The position numbers were made by a program, and so were the translations under genes. Shown piece by piece: positions 25,321 through 63,938 of a stretch of DNA of 64,000 bases. This DNA is from Crocinitomicaceae bacterium (GTDB lineage: Bacteria; Bacteroidota; Bacteroidia; Flavobacteriales_D; Crocinitomicaceae). The stretch is from assembly GCA_024643365.1 (NCBI GenBank), contig JAHENC010000022.1, positions 1-64,000 on the forward strand, in the 5' to 3' direction. Numbering within the stretch: the first letter of the stretch is position 1; the number at the start of each line of letters is the position of its first letter. Under the pieces are notes generated by a model, which saw nothing but the letters and a program-made list of their open reading frames with translations, was not told the origin of the DNA and did not search any database.

Positions 25321-26356
25321 GCTGTGCTTTTTTGATCAATGCTTGATTGATTTCCTTAATCAATCCAGGGCCTTCGTAGATGAATCCAGAATACAATTGA
25401 ACCAAGGTCGCTCCTGCGTCTAATTTCTCTAATGCATCTTTTGCCGTATGAATTCCACCAACCGCAATCATTGGAATGCTTCCCTTTGATTTTGTATGAA
25501 TGTAGCGAATCACTTCGGTCGAACGTTGTGTCAAAGGTTTTCCCGAAACACCCCCAGCTCCTAAAGCCTCCACTTCCGCAATCGGAGTGATTAATCCTTC
25601 ACGGCTAATTGTTGTGTTTGTTGCAATCAGTCCAGCGATTTTTGTCTCTTGTACAATCTCGATGATTTCATCCAATTGTTCATTCGTCAAATCTGGCGCA
25701 ATTTTCAAAAGAATTGGTTTGGGTTTCTCTTTTGCTTCGTTTTTTTGCTGCAAGGTGGATAATAATTCCATCAATGGTCCTTTTTCTTGCAACGCACGTA
25801 GGTTAGGTGTATTTGGGGAAGAAACATTCACCACAAAATAATCAACCTCATCGAACAGCGCATCAAAACAAATCATGTAATCATTTAACGCCTCTTCGTT
25901 GGGAGTCCATTTATTCTTCCCAATGTTTCCCCCAATAATGAGTTGGTGATTTTTTCTTGCCTTCAAGTGTTTCAATGCCTCTTGAACACCATCGTTATTG
26001 AACCCCATACGATTCAAAATGGCTTCGTCTTTTTTCAAGCGAAACAAGCGAGGTAAGTCATTTCCTGGTTGAGCCAAGGGAGTTACGGTTCCGATTTCAA
26101 TAAATCCAAAACCACAACTTTCCAATTCGTTGAAATACTTGGCGTTTTTATCAAATCCAGCAGCAAGTCCAACTGGATTAGGGAATTTTAAACCGATAAA
26201 TTCACGTTCCAATGTTGGATGTTCTACGTGATAGATGTTACGAAAAATCCACTTTGTTGGTGGAAATTTCACGATTAACTGTAGGAGTCCAACAACAAAA
26301 TAATGGACTTTTTCCGCGTCAAAGCGGAACAAAATGGAACGAACGATTTGGTACAT
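25313..26356 (-). CDS. pyrD: Quinone-dependent dihydroorotate dehydrogenase (class 2)
   Basis: 347 residues from the ATG at 26356 ([20 protein letters not shown]), the usual class 2 N-terminus; a TTG two codons earlier is in frame but overlaps the promoter box TACATTTG just upstream. The N-terminal helical pair gives membrane association. FMN-barrel motifs: [49 protein letters not shown] (catalytic Ser), ATNTTISR and GVSGKPL. It oxidises dihydroorotate with the quinone pool as acceptor, the fourth step of UMP synthesis. The stop overlaps the HMG-CoA lyase start by 8 bases. Confidence 0.95.
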
Positions 26357-26404
26357 ATACAAATGTAAAAACTAATTTCTACATCGCAGGGAAAGAACCA
26401 AAGT

Positions 26405-26572
26405 TTAGAACCAAATCAATGCAGTAAAAACACCACCAAGAACATAAACCCAAGGATTCATGATCCATTTTTGATATTTCACTCCACCATAAATGGATTC
26501 AAAATCCATTCGTTGTCGAATTTGTTCGGAGCTAGGCTCTTCCCTGTCCAGTAGAAATTTTATCATGTTCAT
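26405..26572 (-). CDS. Small membrane protein (55 aa) coupled to an ECF sigma factor
   Basis: Too short for a usual ORF cut-off but well supported by position: its ATG (26570-26572) overlaps the TGA stop of the upstream sigma factor as ATGA, a standard translational coupling. The 55-residue product starts MNMIKFLLDREEPSSEQIRQ, continues RMDFESIYGGVKYQKWIMNP and ends with one hydrophobic helix (WVYVLGGVFTALIWF). Predicted topology is a cytoplasmic charged head and a C-terminal membrane anchor. Its place is where an anti-sigma factor gene often lies, so a minimal anti-sigma or localisation partner is possible (inference). A second ATG two codons in is an alternative start. Confidence 0.6.
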   Translation of the reverse strand: MNMIKFLLDREEPSSEQIRQRMDFESIYGGVKYQKWIMNPWVYVLGGVFTALIWF

Positions 26573-27141
26573 TCTTTTTTATTAAACATTTCTTTCAATT
26601 TCAAAAGCGCACGAAACGTTTTTACTTTTGCGTTATTTTCAGAAAGCCCAACAATTTCACCAATTTCTCGGAAAGAACGTTTTTCAAAAAAACGCATTTC
26701 GATTAACTGTAATTGTGCTTCCTTCAGTTTTCCTAAAGCCACCAATAATTTTGCTCTGTTTTCCTCGCTGCTGTCATCTGTAAAATCATCCATCACCTGC
26801 TTCAAGGTTACGGAATCAATGCTCACGGTACGTTGCGCTTTTTTATCGCGGAAAGATTGATACAACTCACTTTTAGCGATGCGAAATAACCAAGAAGAAA
26901 AGGGTACTCCCCTGTTCTCATATTTTTGGATACTTCCCATTGCCTTGATAAATACACAAGAAGTGATGTCATACGCACTTTCGGTTTCATCCACACGTTT
27001 GAACACATAGCGAAAAATCGCTTCGTGGTAACGTTCGTACAAAGGAGCAAAATAACGCGGATGTTCTTTCGCACGTTCAACGAGTTTCATTTCCTCATCC
27101 AGACGAAATGCACTCTGATGGTAAGTCAAGTTGACAGCCAT
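26569..27141 (-). CDS. ECF-type RNA polymerase sigma factor
   Basis: 190 residues from the ATG at 27141 (MAVNLTYHQSAF); the frame is open 20 codons further up but those residues are not family-like. Region 2: FAPLYERYHEAIFRYVFKRV...YDITSCVFIKAM and VPFSSWLFRIAKSELYQSFRDKK (about 35-105). Region 4: LIEMRFFEKRSFREIGEIVGLSENNAKVKTFRALLKLK near the C-terminus, a clear helix-turn-helix. Region 3 is missing, as in ECF factors. It is translationally coupled to the small membrane protein downstream. No classical anti-sigma gene adjoins. Possible targets would include the neighbouring outer-membrane genes (speculative). Confidence 0.88.
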   Translation of the reverse strand: MAVNLTYHQSAFRLDEEMKLVERAKEHPRYFAPLYERYHEAIFRYVFKRVDETESAYDITSCVFIKAMGSIQKYENRGVPFSSWLFRIAKSELYQSFRDKKAQRTVSIDSVTLKQVMDDFTDDSSEENRAKLLVALGKLKEAQLQLIEMRFFEKRSFREIGEIVGLSENNAKVKTFRALLKLKEMFNKKE

Positions 27142-27260
27142 AAGATTTGGTTTTAGTTCTAGTTTGATTTTTTTGGAGATCGCGAGGCTTGCAGTCCTCA
27201 CTTAAGTGGATAACGCTTAAATTTTAAAAACGTATCAGTTTTTTTTGAAAAAAAATCAAA

Positions 27261-29339
27261 TTAAATGGAAATCCTAAGCTGGATAAGCAAATCAGATTTT
27301 CGGTTTCCGATGATTTGCTCTGCTCCGGAGCTTATTGAGCTACGGTTTTCGTATAAAAAGACACCATATTTGATCCATAAATCACACGAACGCCAAAAAC
27401 TGTATCGCAACAACACATACGCACGACTTCCTTGGTAGTAATAAGCTGGAACAGCAAATACGTACAAGGCGTTGCTTTCGAAGGTATAAATGCGCGTATC
27501 GTAACTATCTGTATCAAACAGAGCAAAGCGCAGCGACAGATCGAAAGGACTACTTTTAGGTTTAATGATTAAATCCTGGGAAAACAACATTCCTTTCTCT
27601 GGTGTATTACTCGCTCGGTGAATCGTCACGTATTCCAAACGTGTTTTCAGCGAGATGAATTCATTTAACACACAGGACATGTTCAAGCGGTAATTGCGCT
27701 GTATGACATCTTCGATTTCCGTAATGGTGCCATCGCTATCCCGACTGTTTTTCTGACGCATTTGTTGACGAAATCGTCCGTAAATCTCAAACGTTTTAGA
27801 TGGCCTGTACACTGGTTGGAGTAAAATTTCATGTCCGTAGGATGGTGAATCGACGCCGTATTTCATCCATGGAAATTTAAATAAATCGACATACGCATTC
27901 AAAGACCAAGCGGAAGCAAGTTTCCATTTGACGGCCGCATACGTCCCCTCCTCGTTTTGCGTGTTGCTTCCCTCTGAGAATCCTGCATTATACAAGGTTT
28001 GATAATCCTTTTGGTAATTGCGATAAAGTAGTCCAAAACTAAAACTTGGATCCAAGGACATCATTGCACCATGCACCATTGCCCATCCGTTTTGGACTGA
28101 AATATCCGAACGAAGGATTTTGGAAACTTCCCCAAAGACATTCATGTTTCTAAAAACATAACTGTAGTCAGAACTTAATGAAGAAAAGGAAGTCCCACGA
28201 AAATCGAATTGATTGTAATACTGAATGGCTTTGTTAAAAGGCTTGTCATATCCCTGATTGATGTACGCTGCTCCCCAACGCAAGGCGCCATTGACGTAAC
28301 GAAGATTTGCTCCAGCGATGCGCTCAGAAATGTCATTCTTTTTCGCGATTTCATTCGTTGTTCGGTGCAAGCCTGATAAATCAATCGTCGAAACGAATTC
28401 CAAATCGTCGTAGGTGGAATCGGACAAGGAAACGGCGTCCATTTTCTTTTGTGAAGCAAATACAAGCAAGGACCAATTTCCGTAGCCAAAATCTGCCGCG
28501 GCACCGCGTAAAAAACGCGACTCATCCACAGAAGTATATGCGCGAATTGGAATCGCTGTTCGCTTCATTGTTGTTAAATCGGAGGTTTTACCAAAGGCAT
28601 AACTGGACCAAAGGTTAAGTCCTTGTCCCACTTGAATCTGGTAATCCCCGATCACAGCTGACTTCAAGTACTTTCCTCCTTTAAAAAACGCATGAGCGGA
28701 ATAGAAATCAAAACCTTGTTTCTGTGTTCCACGAAAAAACTGTTCACCGGCGTCCTTTTCAGCAGTTATTCCCACGGAAATATTTGTCTTGTAGGTATAG
28801 CGAAAACGGGAATAGTAGCGATCTCCATTTCCGTAATAGTATTTATTGGAAGCTTGTTGAACAGAATCACTAACAGAATGGTATCCTGCTTTGGATTCCA
28901 TCATCGGTTGGTAACGGATGTATTCTTCGAATTGACCCTGCTTCATCGCTTCTTTCCAGGTTATGTGTAATTGATCGAGACGGTCATCCACGTGAACGAA
29001 AGGAAGAACAAGTTGAATCACTTGAGCATCCCAATAGTTCAAACTTTGCAATTCATAGATGGAAATAAATTTTCCAAACGCCTTCCTGTGCAAGAGTACA
29101 TCGTTGATTTGAATACCCGAAAGTAGATACAATTCCTCCAGTTCCTCACCGGTGGTTGTGTTTAAATTTATTGGGTGATCAAAATAATAATTGAGTTGTT
29201 CGATAATGTTCGTTAAGTCGATGTTTTCGGACTGAACTTGTTCAGATATAAACTCGATTCGTTGCTGAATAATTTCACTGCGATCTTGCGCAAAAACGTT
29301 CCCAAAGGACAGCAGAAGCAAGCAACAAAGTAATCTCAT
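27261..29339 (-). CDS. Helix-hairpin-helix domain outer-membrane protein
   Basis: 692 residues: signal peptide 1-17 (GNVFAQ); then a ComEA-like helix-hairpin-helix pair at about 50-115 (PINLNTTTGEELEELYLLSGIQINDVLLHRKAFGKFISIYELQ...); then about 550 residues of amphipathic strands (YRYQ, YYSRFRYTYKTNISVGITAEKD, and a C-terminal LLIQLRISI) as in outer-membrane barrels. This HhH-plus-barrel arrangement is common in Bacteroidota and has no known role; HhH here probably binds another molecule in the periplasm rather than chromosomal DNA. One base after the PorV/PorQ-like gene, so the two are a pair. Confidence 0.75.
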   Translation of the reverse strand: MRLLCCLLLLSFGNVFAQDRSEIIQQRIEFISEQVQSENIDLTNIIEQLNYYFDHPINLNTTTGEELEELYLLSGIQINDVLLHRKAFGKFISIYELQSLNYWDAQVIQLVLPFVHVDDRLDQLHITWKEAMKQGQFEEYIRYQPMMESKAGYHSVSDSVQQASNKYYYGNGDRYYSRFRYTYKTNISVGITAEKDAGEQFFRGTQKQGFDFYSAHAFFKGGKYLKSAVIGDYQIQVGQGLNLWSSYAFGKTSDLTTMKRTAIPIRAYTSVDESRFLRGAAADFGYGNWSLLVFASQKKMDAVSLSDSTYDDLEFVSTIDLSGLHRTTNEIAKKNDISERIAGANLRYVNGALRWGAAYINQGYDKPFNKAIQYYNQFDFRGTSFSSLSSDYSYVFRNMNVFGEVSKILRSDISVQNGWAMVHGAMMSLDPSFSFGLLYRNYQKDYQTLYNAGFSEGSNTQNEEGTYAAVKWKLASAWSLNAYVDLFKFPWMKYGVDSPSYGHEILLQPVYRPSKTFEIYGRFRQQMRQKNSRDSDGTITEIEDVIQRNYRLNMSCVLNEFISLKTRLEYVTIHRASNTPEKGMLFSQDLIIKPKSSPFDLSLRFALFDTDSYDTRIYTFESNALYVFAVPAYYYQGSRAYVLLRYSFWRSCDLWIKYGVFLYENRSSISSGAEQIIGNRKSDLLIQLRISI

Positions 29340-63371: not shown

Positions 63372-63938
63372 ATGCAAGAAGAAGTGAGTATTTTCGAAAC
63401 GCTAATTAATCGTTGTATCCAACGGGATGAAAAGGCGCGAAAAGAACTTTACGATTTATTTTCAGCTCAAATGTTTAATGTTTGTCTTCGCTATGCGAAG
63501 AATAGGAGTCAAGCGGAAGATATTTTTCAAGATGCATTTATTAAAGTTTTTGAGAATTTAGCAAAATTGTCTAATAAAAATCAGTTTCCCGGCTGGATTA
63601 AACGCGTTTTCGTTAACACCGCCATAGATCATATTCGCGCAAATAAAAGATATGAGTCAACTGAACATTTACATATTATTGAACATTATTCAGATGTTGA
63701 ACCGTCAATTATTGATGACTTAGCACATGAGGATTTACTCGAAATGGTACAAGAATTACCACCAAGAGCGAAAGTAGTTTTCAACTTGTTTGTTATTGAG
63801 GGATATTCACACAAGGAAATTGCGGATGAATTAGGAATTAACATTGGAACATCAAAGTCTCATTTGTTCGATGCGAAAAACATATTAAAAACGAAATTAT
63901 TAGCCAAAGAAGCCAAACTATTTAGTATTGTCAGCTAA
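63372..63938 (+). CDS. ECF-type RNA polymerase sigma factor
   Basis: 188 residues. Region 2: KARKELYDLFSAQMFNVCLRYAKNRSQAEDIFQDAFIKVFENL and FPGWIKRVFVNTAIDHIRANKR (about 22-98). Region 4: LPPRAKVVFNLFVIEGYSHKEIADELGINIGTSKSHLFDAKNIL (about 128-175), a strong helix-turn-helix. The form resembles the Bacteroidota ECF group whose gene precedes a cell-envelope protein or anti-sigma partner. A TACATTTC box at 63350-63357 may be its promoter. The next gene starts 3 bases after the stop and runs off the window. Confidence 0.9.
   Translation: MQEEVSIFETLINRCIQRDEKARKELYDLFSAQMFNVCLRYAKNRSQAEDIFQDAFIKVFENLAKLSNKNQFPGWIKRVFVNTAIDHIRANKRYESTEHLHIIEHYSDVEPSIIDDLAHEDLLEMVQELPPRAKVVFNLFVIEGYSHKEIADELGINIGTSKSHLFDAKNILKTKLLAKEAKLFSIVS

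Follow-up and report, generated by a model that had tools for sequence, protein, structure and literature searches.

The window (the whole 64,000-nucleotide stretch analysed) carries, on its minus strand, an ECF sigma factor gene with a 55-codon gene directly behind it. The features of this locus are as follows.

27210-27237, minus strand: ECF-type promoter-like element of the sigma gene, TGATAC-N15-GCGTTAT, conserved in genus leaders.
27182-27201, minus strand: putative leader RNA hairpin, GUGAGG-ACUGCAAG-CCUCGC, with the loop CUGCAAG at 27194-27188; the stem covaries in relatives.
26569-27141, minus strand: cognate ECF sigma factor, 190 aa from the ATG at 27141, with Sigma70_r2 and Sigma70_r4.
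26405-26572, minus strand: 55-aa minimal anti-sigma-like gene (head plus C-terminal anchor), ATG start.
26465-26572, minus strand: predicted cytosolic head of the small protein, residues 1-36; F24 is invariant in a 30-row alignment, K5 and R10 nearly so.
26408-26455, minus strand: C-terminal hydrophobic anchor of the small protein, PWVYVLGGVFTALIWF, residues 40-55 (16 residues).

The sigma factor matched Sigma70_r2 (50.8 bits) and Sigma70_r4 (42.2 bits) in Pfam and is one of 16 region-2 matches in its own genome. Upstream of it lies a 692-aa protein (27261-29339, minus strand) with a sub-threshold helix-hairpin-helix match, and a second ECF sigma gene (207-aa frame) lies near the window end (63447-63650, plus strand). 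The 55-aa protein belongs to no family in Pfam, NCBIfam or PADLOC.

A translated search (E ≤ 1) of 36 same-genus genomes, the own one not among them, recovered the small protein from 32, and in all 32 the best match adjoined the sigma gene, directly behind it. Three of the exceptions (G010, G018, G032) had no sigma match, and in the fourth (G034) the sigma gene lies 36 nt from the contig end. The sigma factor itself had an ortholog or near homolog in 43 of 60 genomes, own included, and in 33 of the 36 same-genus relatives. The initial annotation had assigned the small gene to the slot of an anti-sigma factor, had called for a translated search for synteny and had named an unconserved or stop-ridden frame in relatives as the evidence against its proposal. 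That evidence did not turn up: the gene lies beside its cognate sigma and is kept in relatives, with the frame intact in 32 of 36, and the conserved frame means that the ORF is not a chance one. When a profile was run across the order, 81 of the 199 genomes gave a match at E ≤ 0.01, and 21 of these, counting the own genome, belong to the same genus; G122, without a profile match, was the sole same-genus genome among the misses listed. The downstream neighbour varies within the genus: it is pyrD here and an unrelated gene of roughly 310 aa in other members.

The sigma ORF ends at 26569, and its overlap with the 55-codon ORF reads ATGA (26569-26572), as had been described. The translational coupling read from this overlap is not supported, however, because the overlap is not conserved: the close relative L003/L079 lacks the first ATG and starts two codons later, at Met3 (ATG at 26566-26564), an ATG common to the other members of the window's subclade. 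Genus-wide, the start of the small gene was offset from the sigma gene by -23 to +35, and the rule across the genus is tight spacing rather than overlap. Comparison of the window gene with four near relatives gave dN/dS values of 0.124, 0.189, 0.110 and 0.099. Among the minimal genes, 25 pairs gave dN/dS values of 0.066-0.492, compared to 0.010-0.143 for the sigma gene (24 of the 25 pairs computable); of the two genes, the small one is the faster-evolving. It is under purifying selection, with synonymous changes dominating, and the 55-codon ORF is a real, maintained gene.

Upstream of the sigma gene, the promoter-like element occurred in the genus leaders as TGTTAC, TGATAC, TGTAAC or TGTACC with GCGTTA. 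The strict pattern TGWWMC-N15-GCGTTAT had a single site in the window's own genome, at the sigma gene (zero mismatches), which suggests that the sigma factor may regulate its own gene. With one mismatch allowed, the own genome gave 17 sites compared to 22 for a reversed-pattern control, and TGTTAC-N15-GCGTTA occurred in 10 of the 36 genomes searched (own included), with no more than three sites in any of them. By promoter-pattern search, then, a regulon is not visible in these sequences.

The leader also contains a candidate hairpin whose near-invariant loop, CTGCAAG, follows the GTTA of the -10 at a distance of about 16 nt (mean 15.6, sd 1.65, n = 59); the distance from loop to ATG was more variable (sd 4.81). 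We scored the stem in 65 distinct leaders chosen for an exact CTGCAAG, a selection that makes the loop invariant by construction in this set. The 6-bp stem was 91.3% paired compared to 60.8% in shuffles, and its covariation was 0.876 compared to 0.275; for either measure, none of 500 shuffles scored as high. Slid versions of the stem were at most 57.2% paired, with a covariation of at most 0.274. The count of stem pairs changed on both sides was unexceptional (6 compared to 5.0 in shuffles; 64 of 500 as high), as was single-sequence folding of the window leader (z -1.40; 20 of 200 shuffles as good), so it is the remaining measures that argue for the hairpin. Searched with a covariance model, the own genome had a single strong copy (36.1 bits, the next match scoring 18.9). 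Across 60 genomes, strong matches (E ≤ 4.5e-4) came from 33, among them the own genome, and always from the sigma leader; most were sequences that the model had been trained on, and four genus genomes had weaker extra matches (E 0.005-0.17). Rfam returned no match above the gathering score for 26300-27400, and the loop complement CTTGCAG did not occur at 26301-27260 of the window.

The loop was present in the near clade at 57/59 rows with minimal, 10/16 with mid, 5/8 with long and 4/5 with short partners, and at 3/4 partnerless rows. It was found in 0/17 deeper clade-A leaders and 0/12 leaders of other paralogs, a count in which the deeper paralogs were pooled with clade B. This distribution indicates that the loop goes with the sigma gene and not with the small partner. 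A stem that covaries, at a fixed distance from the promoter-like element, suggests an RNA element at the 5' end of the transcript. Separately, the four 61-aa forms of genus g28 (L228-L231) keep the loop, and by eye their leaders are without the TGTAAC...CGTTAT of L232 and L233.

We then compared the small protein with what lies behind related sigma genes. In other families of the order, the closest sigma is followed by proteins of 253-616 aa (L045, L049, L051, L053, L055, L057) that share the N-terminus and add one membrane helix and a further part. The best 80 loci from a named-genome scan were all Bacteroidota by title, with partners, where seen, of 53-60, 82-110, 217-267 and 537-626 aa. Among all loci listed, orthologous or near-orthologous sigmas are followed by a size series of 53-63, 82-110, 217-308 and 537-626 aa with one head. 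We built an HMM from residues 1-38 of 45 minimal forms, membrane part excluded, and ran it against 57 longer or second-genus partners, of which 44 matched at E ≤ 1e-4; shuffled 60-residue N-termini, 1,060 in all, gave a best E of 0.49. Thirteen of the 57 missed this threshold, nine at E 0.0027-0.95 and four unmatched at E ≤ 10. Most of the misses are partners of deeper sigma paralogs; L141 and L057 belong to the window's own larger clade. On this profile evidence, the head of the small protein is homologous to the N-termini of the single-pass proteins, 82-626 aa long, that follow the same sigma in related taxa. One deeper group of sigma paralogs has partners of 68-101 aa (best E 0.013 with the head HMM, four unmatched), and their kinship to the minimal heads is only suggested.

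Six partners, five of mid or long size and one short, had no Pfam match over the cut-off, and three of them were likewise without an NCBIfam match over its cut-off. In a structure search that barely probed the periplasmic part, all 50 matches listed were sigma or sigma-like structures. The partners of L049 and L045 are 253 and 308 aa long, those of their closest sisters L148 and L143 are 578 and 569 aa, and the L049 and L045 partner genes may be interrupted or rearranged.

We placed these partners on an unrooted IQ-TREE phylogeny of 116 sigma rows, from which contig-edge rows and L046, L047, L059 and L060 were left out (a contig edge is close by at L115, L082 and L097). Outside genus g28 the minimal rows number 53; together with two partnerless rows they formed one 55-row clade (support 99/98). 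The rows around this clade have mid and long partners, and an earlier tree, of 110 rows, recovered the clade with 50 rows (100/97). A second minimal group, the g28 forms of 61 aa, formed a clade (100/100) with L232 and L233, whose partners are 556 and 558 aa. The simplest reading of this topology is that the outside part was lost at least twice and that the 53-63 aa forms derive from longer ones. In the window's subclade, the anchor shortened further, to 16 residues, and to 15 in the L008 group.

Within the minimal clade, L099 and L100 keep the sigma gene, have no partner downstream and sit on long tree branches; they speak against a strict dependence of the sigma factor on its partner. A search for the partner elsewhere in each MAG gave only unconvincing hits (best E 0.06 and 0.025). 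Faster sigma evolution after partner loss was considered and is not supported: the mean distance to 16 outside rows was 0.453 for L099 and 0.438 for L100, compared to 0.428 (sd 0.025) for 46 partnered rows. At L153 and L157, long partners lie at a larger gap behind the sigma gene, and G062, the MAG of L112, has a 554-aa-frame match at another place.

At some loci sigma gene and partner gene share a reading frame, and translating the natural DNA past a single stop yields a sigma-partner chain. We modelled such single chains with AF2, the sigma stop being read as Gly, and read contacts from secondary structure rather than coordinates. The L088 chain (253 residues, 86 rows) reached a mean pLDDT of 85.9 and a pTM of 0.77; partner residues 201-220 were at pLDDT 89-95 and the block with the head strand (191-200) at 70. 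This model has only two strands of at least 3 residues, one in the sigma linker (105-108) and one in the partner head (196-199), from which we infer that they pair. Two short helices (206-211 and 215-220) and an anchor helix (231-252) follow. The L127 long form (738 residues, 30 rows) showed a similar arrangement, with strands at 104-108 and 198-201 and helices at 208-213 and 217-226, at an overall pTM of 0.44 and a mean pLDDT of 70 for the head-strand block. By alignment with the L088 model, the window head would comprise a strand at K5-L8 and helices at about 15-20 and 24-29. The head is thus predicted to dock on the sigma factor; the sigma-partner link in L088 is only 3 residues and could force proximity.

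The modelled sigma was compared with known structures. It aligned over its whole length with SigW bound to RsiW (5wuq_A; Z 13.4, 4.2 Å, 152 aligned) and with CnrH bound to CnrY (4cxf_A; Z 12.6, 3.3 Å, 142 aligned), and with RpoE bound to NepR at Z 11.1 (4.9 Å, 142 aligned). The fit to SigK with RskA was poor (10.0 Å), and sigmaE-RseA and AlgU-MucA aligned over one domain only. A good fit (3.3-4.8 Å) was also obtained with SigG1 and PhyR, whose entries do not show an ECF bound to an anti-sigma, and ECFs bound to RNAP differed over the whole length by an rmsd of 20-27 Å. The modelled sigma is therefore compact like several inhibited ECFs, a shape that is unspecific and by itself no proof. A PDB sequence-profile search returned unrelated matches only, the best to ribosomal L20 (E 0.18).

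Taken with the sigma tree and the predicted docking, the head homology means that both terms of the initial proposal, a minimal membrane tether or inhibitor of the sigma factor or the remnant of one, describe the small protein: it is reduced but maintained, and would bind and inhibit the sigma factor. The locus thus holds a real, maintained, minimal anti-sigma-like protein with a probable anti-sigma function, together with an unexpected putative leader hairpin. We consider it fairly probable that the 55-aa protein is the cognate anti-sigma-like partner cut down to head and anchor, which clamps the sigma factor and releases it via the anchor. Sigma factor and small protein would be made from one transcript, probably started by the sigma factor itself. 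The head would act as the clamp, its strand pairing with the sigma2-sigma4 linker and its two short helices packing on the domains, and the clamped sigma would be kept at the membrane, out of reach of RNA polymerase. It would be set free when the tiny anchor is removed or weakened by proteolysis, a partner protein or a change in the membrane; release via the anchor, rather than by periplasmic ligand sensing, is proposed because the ancestral outside part is gone. Within this model, inhibition, membrane insertion, autoregulation and the release step are all presumptive.

The anchor raises a variant of the same explanation, in which it no longer spans the membrane and the product is a peripheral or soluble sigma-binding peptide. 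A single C-terminal membrane helix had been annotated, and a hydrophobic anchor is indeed present at the end of the window protein, which ends with the helix and has no periplasmic domain. However, the helix is marginal: in this species it has only 16 uncharged residues, with a best 16-residue Kyte-Doolittle mean of 1.62, and the L008 group retains 15 after an Arg. These short runs speak for the variant, as does the 77-aa head-bearing protein of L146/L235, which lacks a hydrophobic stretch. On the other hand, W41 is invariant in the 30 aligned rows, the minimal forms retain hydrophobic, aromatic-rich C-termini, and outside the window's subclade their hydrophobic run measures 17-26 residues. 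We regard the peripheral or soluble variant as rather unlikely. The 77-aa protein of L146/L235 lies at +71 after the sigma gene, carries the head motif without a hydrophobic helix and is possibly a soluble version.

A sigma binder need not be an inhibitor, and the small protein could instead be a membrane recruiter or positive co-factor that stabilises the sigma factor or places it near the envelope. Conservation of the head while the outside part was lost, most simply twice, speaks for such a role. Against it, the long relatives occupy the slot and have the architecture of anti-sigma factors, and some, though not all, of the structures that the modelled sigma resembles are ECFs bound to an anti-sigma; we hold a recruiter or co-factor to be improbable. 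Decay into a functionless remnant of a long anti-sigma protein would explain the loss of the periplasmic part, the later shortening of the anchor and the absence of a partner in L099 and L100. Selection disfavours it, with dN/dS at 0.10-0.19 for the window gene; the frame is intact in 32 genus relatives, the minimal form spans the 55-row clade, and the 30-row alignment retains an invariant F24 and W41, which leaves decay very unlikely. That an unrelated small membrane protein merely shares the transcript, unlinked to the sigma factor, is scarcely credible, since within the genus the gene follows the sigma whatever gene comes next downstream and its head is common to the small protein and the long partners.

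The favoured reading, a cut-down anti-sigma-like partner, can be set beside known systems. CnrY, whose two-helix head wraps sigma2 and sigma4, has a single membrane anchor, and CnrX is the sensor partner in the CnrY system. The small protein would resemble CnrY, the anti-sigma factor of CnrH in Cupriavidus metallidurans (PDB 4cxf), in its very short head with two short helices, here predicted; it differs in having no periplasmic tail and in a head strand that is predicted to pair with the linker of the sigma factor. No CnrY chain occurred among the 7 PDB sequence-profile matches at E ≤ 10. The class I anti-sigma domain consists of four helices. The function here is probably the same as that of the class I factors (RseA, RsiW, ChrR type), and the modelled sigma resembles SigW with RsiW, whereas the head is about 36 residues long with two short helices in the L088 model. 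This falls outside class I as delimited in PMC7406223, where the domains kept had at least 50 residues. The same paper describes CnrY as a two-helix class II head and associates the class I domain with only about 6% of Bacteroidetes ECFs. The Dma anti-sigmas of ECF21 sigmas in Bacteroides, as outlined in PMC13088901, have an N-terminal sigma-binding domain, a membrane helix, a disordered tether and a C-terminal beta-barrel. They are likewise from Bacteroidota and encoded beside the sigma gene, and the long relatives here follow the plan outlined there up to the helix. By that description the window protein is set apart from the Dma family, for tether and beta-barrel follow the helix in Dma whereas nothing follows it here.

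A literature search, with subscription journals mostly beyond its coverage, found no title on the minimal protein or the leader hairpin. The locus represents a family without a Pfam or NCBIfam model, in which one conserved sigma-side head occurs on proteins of 53-626 residues. The size series amounts to a natural deletion series that bears on the minimal needs of an anti-sigma factor and on how a sensor-less one is switched, and the putative leader hairpin adds an RNA layer to an ECF operon. More tentatively, and with considerable doubt, the signal input may have moved: with the periplasmic part lost, most simply twice, the peptide would be the clamp only and its level or membrane insertion the signal, the operon would be set post-transcriptionally through a protein or RNA that reads the leader hairpin, and the head would found a new class of anti-sigma domain, roughly 36 residues long, whose strand pairs with the sigma linker.

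The window's own genome offers a further comparison. Four of its other ECF sigmas (L061, L070, L071, L073) are followed by proteins of roughly 340-560 aa. The N-termini of these partners differ and by eye bear no similarity to the 55-aa protein; they occupy the same slot, as large, single-pass proteins.
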